From the NCBI RefSeq assembly GCF_000507245.1, contig NC_023035.1, positions 3,019,570 through 3,083,569 on the forward strand: a stretch of 64,000 nucleotides of DNA. Direction: 5' to 3'. The DNA is from Salinispira pacifica (GTDB taxonomy: Bacteria > Spirochaetota > Spirochaetia > DSM-27196 > Salinispiraceae). The translations under genes and the position numbers were made by a program. Each line of letters begins with the position of its first letter. The stretch's first letter is position 1. Positions 20,774 through 30,267 of the stretch are shown here, piece after piece. The notes below the pieces were generated by a model, which worked only from the letters and a program-made list of their open reading frames with translations, was not told where the DNA came from and ran no database searches.

Positions 20774-21700
20774 TCAGTCATCAAACAGCCAGGTGCTCAG
20801 ATACCGTTCGCCGCTGTCACAGATCACGGTAACAATGGTTTTGCCCCTGTATTCCTCTCTTGCTGCCATTTCCAGGGCCGCATGAAGGTTCGCTCCGGCA
20901 CTAATCCCCCCGAGAACACCGTGGCCTGAAGCCAGTTTCCGGGCGGCTGCCCCGGCATCCTCACTGCGCACCTTTATCACCTCATCAATGATTTCCGTAT
21001 CCAGAACCTCCGGAATAAATCCCGCCCCGATACCCTGTATCTTGTGCGGGCCGGGCTTGCCGCCGGAAATCACCGGACTTCCATCAGGTTCCACTGCCAC
21101 AAGCCGCAGTTCGGGGTTCAGCTTCTTCAGCTCCCCGCCGGCCCCGGTGAGCGTACCTCCGGTACCCACGCCTGCCAGGAAGACATCCACTTTGCCCTCA
21201 CTGTCTTCCCAAATTTCCTTCGCGGTGGTCAGTCGGTGCACCTCCGGATTGGCGGGATTCGCAAATTGCCGGGTGAGGAGAGCGTCTTCCATCTTCTCCG
21301 CCAGTTCCTCGGCTTTCTTCACCGCTCCGCCCATCCCTTCATTTCCGGGGGTGAGCACGAGCTTGGCACCGAACGCCTTCAGCAGCCTCCGGCGTTCGAT
21401 ACTCATGGTATCCGGCATGGTGAGGTACACAGGATGCCCGGTTGCAGCTGCAATATATGCCAGGGCAATACCGGTATTGCCGCTGGTGGCTTCCACAATG
21501 GGCGCACCCGGAAGCAGACGCCCCTCCTCCTCAGCTCGGCGAATCATGGACAAACCAATCCGATCCTTCACACTGGAGAGGGGATTAAAATTCTCCAGCT
21601 TCAGCAGTACCTCCCCTGCCAGCTGCTCGCCTTTTTCCGGTTGATAGCGCAGCATGGGAGTGTTCCCTATCAGTTCTGTAATTGAGTCATAAATAGGCAT
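20774..21700 (-). CDS. cysK: Cysteine synthase (O-acetylserine sulfhydrylase)
   Basis: A 308-residue PLP enzyme of the cysteine synthase group that makes cysteine from O-acetylserine and sulfide. The PLP Lys lies in NPLSSVKDRIG, the substrate loop is EATSGNTGIAL, and the phosphate-binding Gly-rich loop is GVGTGGTLTGAG. ATG at 21700 follows GGAGAG; a longer frame to 21781 has no ribosome site. A minus-strand promoter with a perfect TTGACA lies about 90 bases upstream. It is probably expressed ahead of metY. Confidence 0.93.
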   Translation of the reverse strand: MPIYDSITELIGNTPMLRYQPEKGEQLAGEVLLKLENFNPLSSVKDRIGLSMIRRAEEEGRLLPGAPIVEATSGNTGIALAYIAAATGHPVYLTMPDTMSIERRRLLKAFGAKLVLTPGNEGMGGAVKKAEELAEKMEDALLTRQFANPANPEVHRLTTAKEIWEDSEGKVDVFLAGVGTGGTLTGAGGELKKLNPELRLVAVEPDGSPVISGGKPGPHKIQGIGAGFIPEVLDTEIIDEVIKVRSEDAGAAARKLASGHGVLGGISAGANLHAALEMAAREEYRGKTIVTVICDSGERYLSTWLFDD

Positions 21701-21765
21701 GGATCCATCTCTCCGGCCTACGGTGGAGTTATCCCCGAAAATCAGCGGATACCGCAGCCAAATCC

Positions 21766-21794
21766 AACTTAACATACCCAATATATATTGTCAA
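21766..21794 (-). promoter_or_regulatory. Likely cysK promoter
   Basis: On the minus strand TTGACA (21794-21789) is followed after 17 bases by TAAGTT (21771-21766). The -35 is perfect and the -10 weak. Confidence 0.4.
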
Positions 21795-21939
21795 CATTAT
21801 TATGAAATTATTGGGGATACGGACTCTGGAGGCAGAGGAATTTGTTTAAGGCCGGGCCCGGGGCTGGGGCCCTGACTGAGGCCGGGGCACAGCATGAAAG
21901 GCGTCCCCGGGTAATTCACCATGCCCGGTGGTCAGATTA

Positions 21940-23153
21940 TCAGTTTTCCAGAATAGTAATTTCAACCCGGCGGTTGCGTCGCATACCATCAGCCGTGTCA
22001 TTATCCGCCACAGGTCTGGTGGCGCCGAAGCCCTGATACATAATGCGACTTCTATCCCGGGCGTCCAGTTCGATGAGAAATTCCACAACTGCCCTGGCCC
22101 GGTCTTCACTCAGCTGCTGCCTTCCTGCTGCAGTTCCTGCAAGAGCAGTGTGTCCGCTGACCAGAATGTCCCGTTGCGGATACGCAGAGAGAATCTCAGC
22201 GATCTTCCGGATCTTGGCCTGCTCCGAGGCCACCAGCCGGGAAGAATCCGGGGGAAACTGAATATTTTCCAGAGAAATGGTAACCCCATCCTCATCATCC
22301 CGGACCGAACTGTCTTCTACACCCAGCTCGTTCAGTCGTTGACGCAGATCATCTTTCAGGGCTTCCCGGTCCAGATCGGGACTCTCGATAACCTCTGCTG
22401 AAGCACTCCCCTCATAGGTTACGGTGCTTCCGTCACTGAGATGCAGCATAATCTCGTAATTCTCGTCATAGGAATGGGGGCGGCCCAGAATATTATCAAA
22501 GTACAGATTCTGATCCGAGTAGCCGGTAATCAGATATGGATACAAAGGATTTCCCGACGGTATATCCTTTCGATGAAATATATTGTATCTGATAACGATA
22601 TGATGCAGTTCCTTTCCATCCCTGTTTACAGGTCCCCGGTACTCGTAACTCACAGGCATGGGAAAAGAGAACACCTCCCGGATATTGAAACCCTGACGCA
22701 GATCATGAACCTCGTATCCTGGAGCGGACCAGGTTTCACCGGGAAGAACATCCCGGTCGGGAAACATGGGAACATCACGCACAGTCGGGACAAAGTACTC
22801 ATCTGAAATATCATACTTGCCCAATGAATTACGCCAGAAATCGGCAGAGTATTCCCGATCCAGCTGATAGGCTTCGCCGCTGTTGCGCCTGGCCTCCACC
22901 GAATGCTGATAGAAAACCTGCTCCCGGCCGGAATCCCCCGGGTCTCCAGCACCTCAACCTGTATCCGATTAAGCAGCTCAGCGCTGTGCTGAAAAATCCC
23001 GTTGAGATATACGTTTTGATCGATTTCAGAAAGGATACGGTAGCGTTCACCATCCCGGAAGCGGTATCGGAACGTCTCTGCATCCATCGACACAGAGACA
23101 AGAGCGACAAGAATAAAAAAAAGCACCGGATACCGGCGATTCATACTGATCAT
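21940..23153 (-). pseudogene. OmpA-family envelope protein, frame broken by an apparent single-base deletion
   Basis: The N-terminal frame (from ATG 23153, behind GGAAGG) encodes a signal peptide (YPVLFFILVALVSVSMDA) and reads to VEVLETRGIPAG. The continuation REQVFYQHSVEARR lies in a different frame and runs to the end. It closes with an OmpA-like peptidoglycan-binding domain (VSGHTALAG, LSEDRARAVVEFL, GFGATRPVADN, RRVEITI). One extra base in the C-run at 22935-22939 would fuse them into one protein of about 405 residues. Three other genes in this window show the same kind of break, so a sequencing error is possible, as is real inactivation. If intact, it would be a periplasmic or outer-membrane protein tied to peptidoglycan. 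Confidence 0.75.
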
Positions 23154-23198
23154 ATGCGCACACCTTCCCATTATTGTATCGGTATTATCACCCATTTC

Positions 23199-23227
23199 TT
23201 GACAAAGAAAATCGGCAAAGCTATTGT
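23199..23227 (+). promoter_or_regulatory. Likely promoter of the DbpA-domain protein gene
   Basis: TTGACA (23199-23204) and TATTGT (23222-23227) are spaced by 17 bases. Transcription would begin near 23234, about 80 bases before the start codon. Confidence 0.5.
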
Positions 23228-23312
23228 TACATAAGATACAGCGGAATACCCGTAGCATCAGTTTTTTCGCCAGTTTTTTTAACAAGGAGGATCAGACAGA
23301 AAACCACAGAAG

Positions 23313-24338
23313 ATGTCACACACACAAACCAGTATGTTATTTTCAGCCCGGGATCACATAATTAATTACAATGACCGGATCCCCTATTATGCCATCATAC
23401 AGTTCTGTGCGTCTGCGTTGCAGAAATCAGAACAGAGAAAACATGCTGAAGCACCCCAGGGTTTGATTGTTGTGCAACGGGAATCAGATATTGACCGCTT
23501 TTTTTCACTGACTGCGGATCATAGACCGGCATGGCAGGTAGTAACCTCCGCCGGTAATACCAGGGATTTACAAATCCCCCAGTCCAGTCCGGAGTTGATC
23601 ATTGGAAGCAGTGCTTCCGTTATCGACCTTATACGAAGACAGGACATTGTTCCCGAAAACATCGGCCTGATGATTATCATCGAGGCAAATCAGGAAAACA
23701 GTTTTTGGATTGATATTGAGTTCATCCTTACAAAAACCTATATGCGAAATATCACGGCGATATTCTCACCTGAACTGCATGAAAATCATTACGGCATTAT
23801 GTCCTATTTGCGCAAGCCCGTTACCCACCAGCTTCAGCAGTGGTTAAACCAACAACAGGAGATGATTATGGCAAAGCGTGATAATCAAATTAATGAAGAA
23901 CAGCTTTCGGATCAGCTGGCAGGTATTTTGAAGGAAATACACGAAAACGAAGACCCTCAGGAACTGGATGAGTTCCGCCGTGTTTTCAAGAAAAATGTAT
24001 CGGTATTTAAACGTGCATACGTTGCAGCATATATGCTGAAATATTTTAACGCCGGCGGGAAGCGTCCCTCAAAACGCCGCAGAGAATCCAATGCAAACAT
24101 GACCTCCGTGTTCATCGGTATCGGAAGAACCCGCAGAGTATACCCGCGGGATATTGTAGGTCTGGTACTGGATAAAACCAGTCTTCAGCGGGAGGATATC
24201 GGGAATATCAAAATTCTTGATAACTATTCCTTTGCTGATATCAACAAGGAAAAAACCGATGAGGTTATTTCTGTGCTCAACGGCATTGAATACCGTGGCC
24301 GCACCCTGAACGTGAACTACGCCAAGAAGAAGAACTAA
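23313..24338 (+). CDS. Degenerate DEAD-box-helicase-like protein with C-terminal DbpA RNA-binding domain
   Basis: The C-terminal 75 residues (TSVFIGIGRTRRVYPRDIV to YRGRTLNVNYAKKKN) look like the DbpA RRM-type domain that binds 23S rRNA. Residues about 25-170 resemble the first RecA lobe of a DEAD-box helicase. In particular, PELIIGSSASVIDLIRRQ aligns with the usual PGRxxDLL region and is followed by IIIEANQ where DEAD is expected. No Walker A motif is visible and the second RecA lobe is missing. It is thus likely an RNA-binding, non-ATPase protein, perhaps a ribosome-assembly or cold-related factor. An AAGGAGG site lies 22 bases from this ATG, which is too far, so the start is uncertain. Confidence 0.72.
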   Translation: MSHTQTSMLFSARDHIINYNDRIPYYAIIQFCASALQKSEQRKHAEAPQGLIVVQRESDIDRFFSLTADHRPAWQVVTSAGNTRDLQIPQSSPELIIGSSASVIDLIRRQDIVPENIGLMIIIEANQENSFWIDIEFILTKTYMRNITAIFSPELHENHYGIMSYLRKPVTHQLQQWLNQQQEMIMAKRDNQINEEQLSDQLAGILKEIHENEDPQELDEFRRVFKKNVSVFKRAYVAAYMLKYFNAGGKRPSKRRRESNANMTSVFIGIGRTRRVYPRDIVGLVLDKTSLQREDIGNIKILDNYSFADINKEKTDEVISVLNGIEYRGRTLNVNYAKKKN

Positions 24339-24345
24339 AAACAAC

Positions 24346-24398
24346 GCCCAAAGAATGTGCCAAAGAATGTGAAAGTCGTCAAATCAATTCTTTGGGGC
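24346..24398. repeat. Inverted repeat between convergent genes, possible bidirectional terminator
   Basis: GCCCAAAGAAT (24346-24356) and ATTCTTTGGGGC (24387-24398) pair with one bulged G. A second AAAGAATGTG copy follows the first arm. It lies between the DbpA-domain gene stop and the end of the convergent membrane-protein gene. The arms resemble the 18-bp inverted repeat near 47.7-47.9 kb. Confidence 0.45.
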
Positions 24399-24402
24399 GC
24401 TA

Positions 24403-25496
24403 TTAAAAGACATAAAGCAAGAAGAGAAGAACCACCAAAAAGAAGTTTATCACCACCCCCAGCCCAAAATAAAACAATGCCAACAACTCGTGAACCACCG
24501 CTTTTCTATGACATTGCTCAGCCAGAACCTCGGGATCCCCCTGAATAGCCACCCGTTCTGCAAAGGGATCGTTACTCTCCCGGGGATAAAAGCACCAAAG
24601 CCGCTCCTGGTCTCCACCCTGAATTACACTGTTTCTCAGACTGAACCTGGGATCATTGAGGATCTCATGCCGGTGGGGAGAACATATCTCCCGTTCATAG
24701 CTTCCGCCGTCGGGGAGTACGCCCCGGGATACCTGAGGGGAAGACGAAGAAGATCCCGCTGTGAGCGGTAATTACGCCCCTGCCTCCATTGGGAGCGGTA
24801 GAGAAAATACAGGAAGATTCCCGGAGGGGCAAGAATGAGACCCGGCAAGAGTGCCAATGGAACCAGGAATATCATGCTGAAATCCTCGCCGCTTTGCTGG
24901 AGGACCTGCAGCAGGAGCAGGAGCTCCAGCATCACTCCGGAGAGCAGGGAGAAGGGCGTAATACTGTTCCAGAATTCATTTCTCTGACGTCCTGTCTGGA
25001 TGGACCGTGAGAGCACCTGCTCGCTTTCCACATCGTGAACAATCACCAGCATCCGGCACAGGGGATCGGTGTAAAAAAGCGGGACAAGAGAAGAATTATC
25101 CACCATGCCGTAGATAAAAAACCGGGTTCCCTCCGGAAGGCTGCTGAGATTTTTCCACCTGGTATATGCCGGAGAGGCATCGCTTCTCTGCAGAACTTCG
25201 GAGTTCAGATCATGCCCCGGAAGCACAAAAATATGCTGAGTGGAGAGATCGACCCTCACCCGATGCCTTCCGTCGCTGAGCCAAATAATATTTTCATCCT
25301 CAATTGCATCAAGACTTCCGAAAAAACGCCGAGCCTGATTTCCGCTGCTGCTTGCGGGATACACAGGAACCATGGATGCCTCGATAAGAGACTTTCGAAA
25401 GCGGCGCCATCGGGTTCTGCTGTAAACCGCACCCAGAAACGGGAGAATTCCGAAGAATATGAGAGCAATCAGCACCGCCAGCAGATTGATATTCAT
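24403..25496 (-). pseudogene. Conserved membrane protein of unknown function, frame broken by an apparent single-base deletion
   Basis: The frame from ATG 25496 encodes an N-terminal membrane helix (LLAVLIALIFFGILPFLG), a soluble domain, and two central membrane helices (LSGVMLELLLLL, LVPLALLPGLILAPPG). It then goes off-frame near RYPG and stops at 24636. Adding one base to the C-run at 24722-24725 restores a continuation of about 110 residues: VLPDGGSYEREI, then NDPFAERVAIQGDPE and a last helix (ALFYFGLGVVINFFLVVLL) ending at 24403. The restored protein has about 365 residues and four membrane segments. No family was recognised. The restored part is too protein-like to be chance. Confidence 0.65.
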
Positions 25497-25541
25497 GATT
25501 TGCTTGCCTCCCGGAGAATGAATGTCTATTCTTTATACTAT

Positions 25542-26225
25542 ATGGTTGAAAGGATAATAACAGGCCCGCTGCATACCAACAGCTTTGTAGTCTCCACAGG
25601 AAGAAAGTCCTGTCTGCTCATCGATCCGGGTGTTGATGCAGAAAAAATCTGGCAGAGTATGGAACGGATCAATCTTACCCCCCACACTATCGTGTTTACT
25701 CACGGACATATTGACCACACCGCTGGTGCCCTGGAAATTATAGAGCATTATCGGGAAAAAGGTGTGGAAATACGGGTGGGAATTCATTCTTCTGATGCGG
25801 ATTATCTGGGATTAAACGGTGAAGAGATCAATCGAAAGCTTCTTCCGGTTAACAATGAAGAAGCGGATGAAGTGTTCACCCAATTATTCAAACCCCGGCC
25901 GCAGGCAGATTTCTATTTTTCCGATGGGGACAGCCTACCGGAATCCGACTTGCAGGTTATTCATACACCAGGCCATACCGAAGGAAGCGTGTGTTTTTAT
26001 TCGGAGGTCAACTCCGCACTGTTCACCGGAGACTCATTGTTTTTCGATGCACTGGGAAGAACCGATTATACCAGCAGCAATAAGGATGATCTTCTGAATG
26101 TACTGAATTCCAAGATTTTTCAACTCCCCCCGGAAACACGGATATATCCCGGACATGGCCCCCTCTCTTCTCTGGAAAGGGAGATCCGGGATGACAGCTT
26201 TAAAACAAATCATGGGATGATTTAG
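25542..26225 (+). CDS. Metallo-beta-lactamase-fold hydrolase (glyoxalase II-like)
   Basis: A 227-residue cytoplasmic protein of the MBL superfamily, closest in layout to small glyoxalase II-like hydrolases (GITGPLHTNSF-type opening, VERIITGPLHTNSF here). Metal ligands are visible in THGHIDHTAG, HTPGHTEGS, TGDSLFFDALGR and YPGHGP. The natural substrate is unknown; a thioester or S-acylglutathione-like compound is typical. ATG at 25542 matches the family N-terminus but has no ribosome site; ATG at 25518 is an alternative. It is divergent from the membrane-protein gene with almost no intergenic space. Confidence 0.85.
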   Translation: MVERIITGPLHTNSFVVSTGRKSCLLIDPGVDAEKIWQSMERINLTPHTIVFTHGHIDHTAGALEIIEHYREKGVEIRVGIHSSDADYLGLNGEEINRKLLPVNNEEADEVFTQLFKPRPQADFYFSDGDSLPESDLQVIHTPGHTEGSVCFYSEVNSALFTGDSLFFDALGRTDYTSSNKDDLLNVLNSKIFQLPPETRIYPGHGPLSSLEREIRDDSFKTNHGMI

Positions 26226-26239
26226 TATTTTTTCGGAAC

Positions 26240-26278
26240 GACAGATGTAAAGGACAGATTTAAAAATCAGTTGTAAAA
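26240..26278. repeat. Degenerate 13-bp tandem array, three units
   Basis: GACAGATGTAAAG, GACAGATTTAAAA and ATCAGTTGTAAAA run consecutively in the short space between two convergent genes. Confidence 0.4.
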
Positions 26279-26289
26279 GATTCAGGGGA

Positions 26290-26736
26290 TCACGCGGTCA
26301 TGTTCAGCAAAAGGGCATTTTCACTGTCGTGCACGCCGAAATTCGCACCAAGATCCCGGGAAATTCCCTGGATCCCCTGGCTCTGAAGGTTTCGGTATTT
26401 TTGTGCATATTCCTGGATCATGGCATCTATGGCTTCGGTACTCAATCCGCTGACATCTTTCTCAGAATCCCGTTCCATTGACCGCTCTTTCATCTGCACA
26501 AGACGGTCTATTAATGTATCCAGCACCCGCAGCCGGGATGACGAATAGCCGCTGGCATTATCAGGGGAAGGTGATACGGTAATGTGCTTAAATTGGGCAT
26601 ACACGGAAAAGTCACGTACATTCACTGCAACCTTGCCCCCCACTGTTCTGGGTCTGAGCATTTGAGAAAGAGGAATGGTGGTTGCTGGAAGCCGCTGCTG
26701 ATTGTGTAGATTGAGGTTGGCTGCACTCAATTCCAT
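26290..26736 (-). CDS. Small conserved-looking protein of unknown function
   Basis: A 148-residue soluble protein with no recognised family. The N-terminal half looks beta-rich (VGGKVAVNVRDFSVYAQFKHITVSP); the middle is a probable helix (RVLDTLIDRLVQMKERSMERDSE), and the end is polar. ATG at 26736 follows AGGAGGACAGT, a near-perfect ribosome site that can be masked by a hairpin with an upstream TCCTCCTG. It lies downstream of the DksA-like gene on the same strand with a spacer of about 140 bases. The good ribosome site and its control hairpin argue that it is real. Confidence 0.6.
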   Translation of the reverse strand: MELSAANLNLHNQQRLPATTIPLSQMLRPRTVGGKVAVNVRDFSVYAQFKHITVSPSPDNASGYSSSRLRVLDTLIDRLVQMKERSMERDSEKDVSGLSTEAIDAMIQEYAQKYRNLQSQGIQGISRDLGANFGVHDSENALLLNMTA

Positions 26737-26741
26737 TACTG

Positions 26742-26775
26742 TCCTCCTGATTACCTTTTCGGCAAAACAGGAGGA
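26742..26775 (-). promoter_or_regulatory. Hairpin that can mask a ribosome-binding site
   Basis: On the minus strand TCCTCCTG (26775-26768) and CAGGAGGA (26749-26742) are perfectly complementary over 8 bp with an 18-base loop. The 3' arm is the Shine-Dalgarno of the gene starting at 26736. This suggests translational control, for example by temperature or a bound factor. Confidence 0.55.
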
Positions 26776-26874
26776 TGTATTAGAGATTAATGCCCACACA
26801 GGGAGAAAACACCCATGCAATGCAATCTATCTGCAGCTCGGCCTTTCTCCCGGAATACTATCTTGGGTCAGGTA

Positions 26875-27231
26875 TCAGCGGTTTCTCCGCTCAAGTTCAT
26901 TCTGATATTCGATTGTATAGAGGGCATACGGAATTGCCTCCAGGCGTTCAGCGGGAATCGGTTTCCCGGTTTTCAGGCAGTATCCGTATTTTCCATTTTC
27001 GATTCTGGAAAGAGCAGCTTCTATGAGATTCAAACGCTTCACTTCCTGTGCAGACAGGGTGCTGAGCAGTTTTTTATCGATATCTGAACTGGCGGCATCC
27101 ACCAGGTCCTTTTTATCGTTTGATGAGGCAAGTTCGAGAAAATCCTCATCTTCGTGTATGAGGTTTTGGATGATTTCAGACTTCATCTGGAGAAGTTTTT
27201 CTTTCATCCTGTCTACGAATTCTCTATCCAT
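26875..27231 (-). CDS. DksA/TraR-family protein lacking the zinc cysteines
   Basis: A 118-residue protein with a coiled-coil N-terminal two-thirds (MDREFVDRMKEKLLQMKSEI, ending in VKRLNLIEAALSRIENGKYG) and a C-terminal YCLKTGKPIPAERLEAIPYA. The last part matches the zinc-finger segment of DksA/TraR proteins, which bind the RNA polymerase secondary channel in the stringent response. Of the four zinc Cys only the first is present (C in YCLKTG); the others are Thr, Thr and Tyr. Cys-poor DksA paralogues that function without zinc are known. ATG at 27231 follows GAGGAG. It is divergent from infA. Confidence 0.85.
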   Translation of the reverse strand: MDREFVDRMKEKLLQMKSEIIQNLIHEDEDFLELASSNDKKDLVDAASSDIDKKLLSTLSAQEVKRLNLIEAALSRIENGKYGYCLKTGKPIPAERLEAIPYALYTIEYQNELERRNR

Positions 27232-27391
27232 GGAGAACTCCTCAAGAACGGGGGTTCTTATTAAAATTTGCGATAAAATGCCTGAAAGCAGGGGAAAAGT
27301 CAACAAGTTGACAAAAAAAAACCAATTTTTTATTATGCACATCTGACCTCTCCGAAGAGAGGCAGTATCAACGAAAACATTTGGAGTATAT

Positions 27392-27610
27392 GTGGCAAAA
27401 GAAGAGGCAATAGAAGTAGAAGGTATCGTAAAGGAAGCTCTGCCAAACACCATGTTCCGCGTGGAGCTGAAAAACGGTCATGTCATTCTCACACATCTTT
27501 CCGGAAAAATGCGGAAGCATTATATCCGAATTGTCCCCGGCGACCGGGTCAAGGTTGCGCTTTCCCCCTACGATCTTACCAGGGGTCGAATTATTTACCG
27601 CGAACGCTAA
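27392..27610 (+). CDS. infA: Translation initiation factor IF-1
   Basis: The product has 72 residues and is a full-length IF-1 with its S1/OB fold: [39 protein letters not shown], and [19 protein letters not shown]. It binds the ribosomal A site and helps IF-2 and IF-3 in initiation. The start is GTG, with TTGGAG upstream. The gene appears to stand alone, divergent from the DksA-like gene. Confidence 0.97.
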
Positions 27611-27674
27611 TCGTCTTTTTACCCGTCTCAGGTCCGGAACCGGAATTAACCACAATTCCAGGCCGGCACCCGGA

Positions 27675-28118
27675 TCATTTGATTACCAGCCAGAGAGCAC
27701 CGCTTCCGCCCAACGACCTGCCGGGTACACCATGACGGCCGGCGTGAGGATGGGCTCGTACAACCTGCATCACCGTATCTTTGAGAACCGGGCCATCCGT
27801 ACTGTGGTTTCCTTTGCCGTGGATGATGAGAACCTTCTTCCATCCGCGGCGATAGGATTCATCAATAAAATGCCGGAGAGAAATCTCGGCGGCCTGCGCC
27901 CGCATACCATGAAGATCCAGAGTGGACTCTATTTTCAGACTGCGGGGATTTACACCGCCATGTTCCGCTTGCTCCCTCTCGTCATCTTTGCTGCGGCTCT
28001 CCTCCATGTCCAGATAGCCGTCCACCATCCGTTCAAAATCCGAGGATGATCTGCCCTCGGACCTTCCCCGGGAACGTATTCCGTCCCATTCTTCCAGAAT
28101 TTTACCGAAGTCAGTCAT
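27675..28118 (-). CDS. Smr-domain protein
   Basis: A 147-residue protein with a charged, helical N-terminus and a C-terminal Smr domain (TLDLHGMRAQAAE, VLIIHGKGNHS, and GGSGALWLVI). Small Smr proteins are found next to MutS2 or alone and are thought to be nucleases or RNA-binding factors acting in ribosome quality control. The family His and Gly motifs LDLHG and HGKG are intact. ATG at 28118 (AGGAGA upstream) overlaps the batD stop by 8 bases, so it is the last gene of the Bat operon. Confidence 0.85.
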   Translation of the reverse strand: MTDFGKILEEWDGIRSRGRSEGRSSSDFERMVDGYLDMEESRSKDDEREQAEHGGVNPRSLKIESTLDLHGMRAQAAEISLRHFIDESYRRGWKKVLIIHGKGNHSTDGPVLKDTVMQVVRAHPHAGRHGVPGRSLGGSGALWLVIK

Positions 28119-30267
28119 TCTCCTGCTCTCCCTGTTCCGCATTTTCCGGGGAGTCCGAACCTGATGATGCCCCAAGATTCAACGGGAGATATGCCCGCTG
28201 ATCAGCTACCCAGGCTTCAATTCCGTAGGCGGTCCGTATCTGGATAAACCCCGATGCGGAAACACCCGGGGAAACAGTGGTACCCTCCGGCAGAAAAATC
28301 CAGTTTTCTGCTTCCTTATCCGGGATTTTCTTCAGCATTACACCGCCCTCCTTGATTACCGCGATATGGCTGTCCACACCTGAGCGGTACATGAACAACA
28401 TGGTGGTACTCAATGCAAGCACTATGATTACCAGTACTGCACCAACTACAAAGGACGCATTCCAGCGGGGCTGAAAATCTTTCTGCACCAGATAGATGCC
28501 GCTGAAAAGAATTGACAGATAAACAAGCAGCAGAGACCAGTCCCCGTGCGGAATTCTGTTGATACTGAATTGTCTGTTTAACTGGAGCTCCTGCTGGAGG
28601 GTGCCCAATGCAGAGCGAAGGAAGGGATCCAGGGGAGAAAGGCTGACTGCCTTCCTCATAAGCATTACCGCCCGGGCATTATTACCTTCCAGATGCTCGA
28701 GCTGTGCCACATGGAAATACAGCTGAGTGTCCCGGGAACGGATTCCCAGCAGACTTTGTCCCTTGAGAAGCAGAACCGGAAGATTATCGTCCTCATTCAC
28801 CTTTTCCACATTTTCAAGATACGACTCAAGCTGCCGGGATACCGGTGCCTGGGGTTCCGCGTTTACCAGAATAATCAAGGCAATACTAATGGAAACCAGC
28901 GTGTATATGAGTACACCGGTTGCGGAAACTGCCGAACGTTTCTTCCCGATTATCCGCTGAAAAATAAGAATAAGGGGAATGAGGGCAAACAACAGAGCGC
29001 CTATCCAATTCATAGCCAGATCCAGGGGAAACCTTTCCGCCAATCCCCGGCGAACGGGATACCGCAATTGTGAAAAACTGGGCTGTTTTTCCGTTATTTC
29101 CTTTTCCTGGATATTAACCCGGTATATTCTCGTTCCGCTGCGCTGAACACCCTCAAGAAATGGATTAAACCACTGAAAATCCGGTACCATAACGGTCATC
29201 TCACCGGGGCTGTCCGCCCTGATTCTGTAGATTTGCCGGCGTGAACCGCTGTATCCGTTTTCCGTTGCCTCATAATCGGCAATCTGATCCCGACCTTCGA
29301 TGGTTCCATTGCGGACCTCTATTTCGGGCATCTGCAGCACTCCCAGACTGCCTTCACCGCTGATGATCAGCTCAAAAACCAGCTCGTCCCCTTCTTCGAG
29401 CTCTTCCGGGAGGGATGAAACTGACAGTTCAAAACGCCCTACAGCCCCGTTTTCTATGCTTGGACTGTCCCTGAGAGGCTGAATCTGAATGACCTGGGAA
29501 GATACGGTACGGCGGTACCCGCTGAAACTCACCTGTGCCGCAGGAATTCGCAGGTTTCCGCTTTCCAGAGGCGTGTAGAGAAACGTCGCCAGGGGGATTC
29601 TATTGAAGGTTTCATTCATGAACTCATAGGTGGTGAGTTCACCCAGACCGGTAACCTCCTCAAGAATACCGTCCCTGGCTGATTCCACCCGAAGGCTTTC
29701 TGGAAAAATGATCTCTTTTGCCCGGTGCATATCCAGGGAGATATACACGGTTTGACCTTCAAATATCGGTCCTGAAGGGAAGCTCCATTCCAGTTCCGGG
29801 GGAACCATGCTGCCGTCGGCGGTTACCGGCACAAGTATTTCCTCAGTTTCCAGACGGAGCTCCGGCCAGATCAGCGTAAAGGGTTCAACTGTCACATAGC
29901 CTGCAACGTCTGCAACGTAGTTATAGCGGTAGCGGATCCGGTCTTCGGGAATATCCGCAGAAAAAGAGCTTTCGTAACTGGGACCGGAGTAATAGCGCAT
30001 TCTCTCAGGAGTCTGAGGCCGCTGGATACGCAGTCCCGGCTGGTATTCCCGGGGTATCTCAATATAGAGATTAAAGCGGCTCCCCTCCTCCACCGGTTCC
30101 TGCTGGAGGTATATGGAGATATCATCCCGGCTCTGGGCATATAGCGAAATAGACACACTGAGCAGCCCAAAGGAGATCAGGAGAAAAATACGGATGACAG
30201 CGGAGATTCTGATTCTCACCAGTCTTTGATCTCCGGAAGCTGCCGGTCCTGGTGCTGCTGAATCCAT
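28111..30267 (-). CDS. batD: BatD-type membrane protein with TPR and SH3-like C-terminal parts
   Basis: A 718-residue envelope protein. A signal peptide/anchor lies at about residues 20-45 and is followed by the long beta-rich BatD region (DISIYLQQEPVEEGSRFNLYIEIP and so on). Two membrane helices then appear (WIGALLFALIPLILIF, LIYTLVSISIALIILV), a short TPR-like stretch (LEGNNARAVMLMRKAVSLSPLDP), two more helices, and a C-terminal SH3-like segment (GFIQIRTAYGIEAWVADQRAYL). Bat proteins form an aerotolerance/envelope-stress complex; BatD is its scaffold by inference. ATG at 30267 follows AAGGAAG and lies inside batC, an overlap of 52 bases. It combines BatD with a BatE-like TPR portion. Confidence 0.82.
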   Translation of the reverse strand: MDSAAPGPAASGDQRLVRIRISAVIRIFLLISFGLLSVSISLYAQSRDDISIYLQQEPVEEGSRFNLYIEIPREYQPGLRIQRPQTPERMRYYSGPSYESSFSADIPEDRIRYRYNYVADVAGYVTVEPFTLIWPELRLETEEILVPVTADGSMVPPELEWSFPSGPIFEGQTVYISLDMHRAKEIIFPESLRVESARDGILEEVTGLGELTTYEFMNETFNRIPLATFLYTPLESGNLRIPAAQVSFSGYRRTVSSQVIQIQPLRDSPSIENGAVGRFELSVSSLPEELEEGDELVFELIISGEGSLGVLQMPEIEVRNGTIEGRDQIADYEATENGYSGSRRQIYRIRADSPGEMTVMVPDFQWFNPFLEGVQRSGTRIYRVNIQEKEITEKQPSFSQLRYPVRRGLAERFPLDLAMNWIGALLFALIPLILIFQRIIGKKRSAVSATGVLIYTLVSISIALIILVNAEPQAPVSRQLESYLENVEKVNEDDNLPVLLLKGQSLLGIRSRDTQLYFHVAQLEHLEGNNARAVMLMRKAVSLSPLDPFLRSALGTLQQELQLNRQFSINRIPHGDWSLLLVYLSILFSGIYLVQKDFQPRWNASFVVGAVLVIIVLALSTTMLFMYRSGVDSHIAVIKEGGVMLKKIPDKEAENWIFLPEGTTVSPGVSASGFIQIRTAYGIEAWVADQRAYLPLNLGASSGSDSPENAEQGEQEND

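Follow-up and report, generated by a model that had tools for sequence, protein, structure and literature searches.

Helicases of the DeaD/CsdA type resemble the protein described here in domain order, in the fold of the first RecA lobe (RecA1), in the RNA-binding domain (RBD) and perhaps, by profile similarity, in the helical domain, whereas our protein has no ATPase motifs, a single lobe and an internal start. DbpA and YxiN have the RBD in common with our protein, which has no helicase core. The yeast pseudohelicase Utp25 has a DEAD-box fold in which the motifs are dispensable or lost (PMC9539457); it differs in being a eukaryotic factor of the SSU processome, and the available excerpt of that paper describes neither a DbpA-type RBD nor an internal start. 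Genes-within-genes include RpnL/RpnS, in which a C-terminal module is made from an in-frame internal start and RpnS has a dimerisation interface (PMC10327210), and the Cascade gene from inside which Cas11 is translated (PMC11899642). Those systems are a nuclease toxin and CRISPR, whereas the long partner in spirochaetes is a dead helicase. Finally, a C-terminal piece of human DDX21, consisting of a dimerisation domain, an RBD (GUCT) and a tail, remodels RNA G-quadruplexes without ATP (PMC7721647); here, too, the tail of a helicase dimerises and binds RNA, although the domain is human and was cut out in the laboratory.

Pseudohelicases (PMC9539457) and genes-within-genes (PMC10327210) were known before, and what is new is a conserved internal start in a pseudohelicase family. 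Our literature search returned few bacterial pseudohelicases, none of them with a conserved internal start, and it did not find the combination of pseudohelicase and gene-within-gene in a spirochaete-wide family.

Table 1. Features of the locus; positions count from the first nucleotide of the window, i.e., the whole 64,000-nucleotide stretch of Salinispira pacifica DNA analysed.
Feature	Position	Strand	Description
Promoter-like element	23199..23227	+	TTGACA (23199-23204), 17-base spacer, TATTGT (23222-23227); consensus match, candidate
AAGGAGG	23284..23290	+	22 bases 5′ of ATG 23313; no in-frame start at working distance
Long ORF	23313..24338	+	341 aa: RecA1-like lobe, helical domain, DbpA RBD
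RecA lobe 1 fold of DEAD-box type, without ATPase motifs	23313..23840	+	residues 1-176; model and fold comparison
Internal Shine-Dalgarno AGGAG	23857..23861	+	6 bases 5′ of ATG 23868; position conserved in the family
Internal ORF, proposed main product	23868..24338	+	156 aa, residues 186-341: helical domain and DbpA RBD
Three-helix domain, DeaD/CsdA dimerisation-like	23895..24050	+	residues 195-246; models and hhalign
DbpA/YxiN-type RNA-binding domain	24108..24317	+	residues 266-335; PF03880 and fold match

A RecA lobe without helicase motifs

From the DNA letters, the sequence-only reading had recognised a good C-terminal DbpA-type domain, preceded by a single worn RecA lobe of helicase derivation with IIIEAN in place of DEAD and no Walker A or other ATPase motif. 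In a Pfam scan of the 341-aa protein, DbpA (PF03880) was indeed the sole match above cut-off (E = 2.3e-20, 72.8 bits, cut-off 25.6), with no match to DEAD or Helicase_C; the NCBIfam model of CshA aligned with residues 83-158 in lobe 1 at E = 8.3e-5, far under its cut-off. The AlphaFold model (47 relatives in the alignment; mean pLDDT 83.9) was compared with lobe 1 of DEAD-box proteins, and a predicted fold unrelated to RecA, which would have spoken against the earlier reading, was not what emerged. VIA-align gave residues 1-176 a Z score of 17.7 to DDX6 (4ct4_B; 170 residues, 2.8 Å) and 17.4 to CshA (5ivl_A), and the top Foldseek row was DbpA (7pli_A, E = 1.5e-9). The second RecA lobe is absent from both alignment and model, at residues 176 to 195.

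None of the P-loop, DEAD, SAT and HRxGR motifs of DEAD-box RNA helicases is present in the sequence. When the translation was read by eye, IIIEAN was found at the DEAD position, FSPE at FSAT and GSSAS at TPGR, and the P-loop was missing. The motif Ib region reads IDLIRR by eye, the preceding TxxR being gone (SSAS); a pattern scan gave only SSASVID there. The opposite strand of 23313-24338 was considered as the coding strand and rejected, as it is interrupted by stops. With a helicase fold minus the catalytic motifs, and with lobes that are under purifying selection in its relatives (see below), the predicted 341-aa protein has the features of a pseudohelicase.

A syntenic family of spirochaete pseudohelicases

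A search with the single 341-aa protein as query yielded 70 stretches, none of which was confirmed. When an alignment of relatives served as the query, 78 loci were confirmed in a public genome collection, every one with a spirochaete title. With the window gene, these make 79 genes: 19 two-lobe, 33 one-lobe, 21 short (no lobe) and six cut by contig ends. The last, open at the 5′ end (L070, L077, L089, L099, L100 and L120), were excluded from class counts, leaving 73. Among the 52 long genes (two-lobe plus one-lobe, window gene counted in), DEAD, SAT and HRxGR occur in none and a strict P-loop in one; helicase paralogues of the same clades have DEAD in 29, SAT in 28, HRxGR in 30 and the P-loop in 28 of 30. 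ID[HFL]xR[RL], a pattern derived from motif Ib, is kept in 50/52 long genes. In a second alignment of 48 members, the DbpA domain was matched in all, Pfam DEAD in 34 and Helicase_C in six (E ≤ 0.001). That an ordinary two-lobe helicase was broken by a sequencing frameshift or an annotation artefact is refuted by these relatives and has a negligible probability, given that the one-lobe layout recurs in 33 genes and that two-lobe relatives lack the motifs as well; nothing was found in its favour.

At least one of the six window neighbours accompanies 66 of the 72 classed relatives (19/19 two-lobe, 31/32 one-lobe and 16/21 short), which indicates that the family members are orthologues at one locus. 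Rather than an isolated oddity, the window gene is a member of a group of orthologous spirochaete pseudohelicases with conserved gene order. The gene order recurrent in many spirochaetes (window 20774-28175; neighbours named by eye from translations) is cysteine synthase-like, OmpA-like, pseudohelicase, membrane protein, metallo-beta-lactamase-like hydrolase, DksA-like zinc finger and Smr-domain gene.

In all 21 close pairs of relatives, dN/dS of the lobe region lies between 0.05 and 0.32, a set outside which the window lineage falls, the rows nearest to it (L050 and L051) having no lobe. The lobes of the relatives are real protein under purifying selection. Elsewhere in the S. pacifica genome (3.78 Mb, one contig), one other DbpA-domain match exceeds the cut-off (C1:564991-565197, minus strand), and it sits in a full DEAD-box helicase of the DeaD type.

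A class-wide census matched 230 of 265 genomes, and another count 56 of 61; both include helicase cross-hits and hence give no family count. Among the match-less genomes listed (20 of 35), all belong to family f25, are 0.9-1.9 Mb in size and in that respect Borreliaceae-like, and the pseudohelicase seems to have been lost there. A metagenome bin titled "Borreliella garinii" (L118) has a short member although Borreliaceae-like genomes are without the family; its title is probably a misnomer.

A conserved start signal within the gene

Every in-frame ATG, GTG and TTG was scored by duplex energy against the anti-Shine-Dalgarno sequence, values of −7 kcal/mol or lower counting as strong. A single sharp peak lies 21-30 codons upstream of the helical-domain anchor, where 73% of 81 start codons are strong; outside it the share is mostly 0-20%, with 37-38% in the adjoining bins (−40 and −20). 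Within a 32-codon zone that offers several start codons, the best one is a strong internal site in 18/19 of the two-lobe genes, 32/33 of the one-lobe genes and 16/21 of the short genes; in the other five short genes the Shine-Dalgarno at the internal place is weaker than the threshold. The best N-terminal start is strong in just 3/19 two-lobe and 8/33 one-lobe genes. Within the zone from −36 to −23, the site is in frame in 45/52 long genes, against 3/52 and 0/52 for the other frames, and the equivalent place in helicase paralogues has it in 1/29. A Shine-Dalgarno core followed 4-10 bases on by an in-frame start was found in 50/52 long genes (misses: L113 and L115). The start codon itself varies (10 ATG, 7 GTG and 2 TTG in two-lobe genes; 20 ATG, 11 GTG and 2 TTG in one-lobe genes). 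A second sample of 20 stretches had the site in 9/10 two-lobe genes (two of these ten stretches duplicate L081 and L083) and 9/10 short genes, the misses being L190 and L187.

Codon usage bears the same mark. At identical residues, synonymous change amounts to 5/69 within the Shine-Dalgarno window versus 1031/3208 outside it (Fisher 1.4e-6; 18 overlapping pairs), and the synonymous rate, about 0.34 in the gene body, falls roughly fourfold at the internal site, with a smooth dip on either side. When the protein was held fixed and codons were resampled in 38 non-redundant genes, the mean energy was −8.70 observed versus −5.33 expected (combined p = 6.8e-7); gene by gene, p is below 0.05 in only 5/38, and for the window gene it is 0.20. 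The control of 495 other in-frame starts showed no shift (−2.45 observed, −2.50 expected).

The TTGACA consensus was looked for inside the gene as well, as a sign that the short product has a promoter of its own; it occurs within 300 bases 5′ of the internal start in only 2/52 genes. Near the 5′ end, TTGACA is present in 47/52 long genes (14/19 two-lobe, 33/33 one-lobe) versus 2/52 in an equal-length control stretch. This box, often TTGACAAA, is an unusually uniform candidate promoter for so diverse a group. In L051 it is 95 bases from the start that follows it, and in the window 669 bases separate the box at 23199 from ATG 23868. No structured leader RNA was matched by Rfam in 22900-24700 at E ≤ 1.

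Collectively, an in-frame Shine-Dalgarno and start codon ahead of the helical domain and RBD is a conserved feature of the family. It is also the point absent from the sequence-only reading, whose helicase origin, lobe, motif loss and RBD have stood and to which the orthologue family, the internal start and the helical domain are now added; on the best reading, an odd helicase fragment becomes a gene-within-gene.

These data bear directly on the possibility that the 341-aa pseudohelicase is the sole functional product, a RecA-lobe adaptor that carries the RBD and acts as a regulator or competitor of the DeaD-like helicase; on this view, Lys/Gln-Glu codons would produce the internal Shine-Dalgarno as a by-product. 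Purifying selection on the lobe region in 21/21 pairs of relatives, the well-predicted RecA1 fold, the helicase with a DbpA domain in the same genome and the equal Shine-Dalgarno strength that chance provides at 11% of the internal start codons of the window are all compatible with such a view. We nevertheless regard it as unlikely, as the site occurs in frame only and in a single position, where synonymous change dips and ATG, GTG and TTG replace one another; paralogues are nearly devoid of it, most short relatives start at it, and ATG 23313 has no Shine-Dalgarno.

Probable loss of the lobes and a proposed role for the remaining module

Of the 18 in-frame starts in the window gene, ATG 23868 has the strongest Shine-Dalgarno (−7.4 kcal/mol); ATG 23313, at −0.1 kcal/mol, has nothing usable, so the 341-aa protein may not be the main product. 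Since 11% of 758 internal start codons in the window reach −7.4, the site is ordinary by itself; its conservation in the family makes it notable and leads us to read residues 186-341 as probably the main product, with the long form predicted to be weak and perhaps on its way out. The AAGGAGG at 23284-23290 may be a relic of a former long-form start, and a related AACAAGGAGGA is present in the leader of the short-form relative L050. In that leader, AACAAGGAGGATTTTTTG precedes four codons that end in a stop codon, possibly a tiny upstream ORF at the former long-form start.

In the family tree (71 rows, with L119 and L062 also left out), the nearest relatives of the window gene are the short forms L050 and L051 (100/99 branch), and the tree calls for several independent switches to the lobe-less form, four or more of them on the starred branches. 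Most short genes (the 16/21 given above) start at the retained internal site; a short member of 234 codons (L181) has its Shine-Dalgarno at the same internal place. A profile search in six frames, frameshifts included, found no lobe remnant 5′ of the short genes at the 21 loci.

In the species of the window, lobe 1 might itself be a relic without function, left behind by a recent loss, so that the gene is in effect a short form whose upstream frame is not made. This is a real possibility, though one we incline against. It accords with the lobe-less nearest relatives, with the absence of a start between AAGGAGG and ATG 23313, 22 bases apart, and with the ID[HFL]xR[RL] signature, counted as lost in the window lobe (by eye IDLIRR); against it, the frame is open through the entire lobe, which still models as RecA1 (in a model that used an alignment of lobe-bearing relatives).

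For a rooted tree (75 rows), more near-copies and long branches were removed and 13 outgroup rows added. Few of the deep forks in this tree are settled, and intact helicases do not form one side of a branch; with the tree soft at depth, the order of the series is not firmly rooted. Outside the class, the phylum also has intact helicases whose C-terminal domains are arranged in the same way (L207-L213 and L220, from other classes) and stand-alone proteins, 162-171 residues long, that consist of the helical domain and DbpA RBD (L214-L218). Internal-start readings of this set were not used, the anchor being misplaced in L207-L209 and unsure in L214-L218. Four genomes of the phylum with such a stand-alone protein also give a longer match of 522-789 aa. 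The distribution of intact and stand-alone forms fits a decayed helicase.

The model of the short product shows three helices and the RBD (pLDDT 84.7). The RBD fold has a Z score of 12.1 to DbpA (7pmq_D) and 10.7 to the YxiN-rRNA complex (3moj_B, a 23S rRNA fragment), and in a fold search with the short model the rows cover the RBD only, none reaching the helical domain. By weak profile similarity, the helical domain resembles the DeaD/CsdA dimerisation domain: hhalign gave a probability of 91 (E = 1.1e-6) against a mixed set of intact DeaD-like and stand-alone proteins and, more weakly, 50.9 (E = 1.6e-4) against DeaD paralogues of the relatives. From the DeaD-like helices, the RBD and the analogy with DDX21, we infer that the short product is probably a dimeric RNA-binding protein that would act without ATP, the DbpA-type RBD suggesting rRNA as a likely target. 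The product of the window gene might also compete with or regulate the DeaD-like helicase with a DbpA domain encoded in the genome, a role akin to that which the sequence-only reading had envisaged.

We consider it probable that the locus is a gene-within-gene derived from a decayed DeaD-type helicase, whose main product in the window is residues 186-341, a dimeric, ATP-free RNA binder. A helicase of the layout RecA1-RecA2-helical domain-DbpA RBD would have lost its ATPase in an ancestor of the Spirochaetia while the C-terminal RNA-binding module was retained. An in-frame Shine-Dalgarno and start at the boundary between lobe and helical domain would then allow one mRNA to yield the helical domain and RBD alone as well (in the window, 156 aa from ATG 23868). 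Working as a dimer, this protein may clamp or chaperone RNA, with rRNA the most plausible substrate, and the long pseudohelicase, where made, would enter into these dimers and bring an inactive RecA surface with it. The lobes would have gone in several lineages, leaving the internally started protein alone, which would make the helical domain and RBD the part that selection needs.

A broader version of this proposal is put forward tentatively, as we expect it rather to fail than to hold in full. On a phylum scale, a bacterial pseudohelicase would provide, from an internal start on the same mRNA, its own dimerising RNA-binding subunit; the ratio of long to short forms would set how often the dimers that assemble on rRNA include a dead RecA lobe (heterodimers) or none (homodimers), and ribosome assembly would be tuned in this way without ATP. 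As lobes were lost again and again, what had been an enzyme would be reduced to a domain that once assisted it, with the species of the window caught midway.

In Treponema pallidum, TPANIC_1029/TP1029, annotated as a DbpA RNA-binding domain protein, appears in one study's table of the mRNAs with the highest expression (PMC8525777), and TP1029 is listed as an uncharacterised 25-kDa protein in a protein-abundance table (PMC5015957). Its size and annotation suggest that it is a member of the pseudohelicase family; if so, the family is abundant and unstudied. Genes of the family have probably been annotated in spirochaetes with starts that hide their main product. Furthermore, the family offers a natural series from a two-lobe dead helicase to a bare RNA-binding module, in which the role of a helicase tail without its motor is open to direct test.
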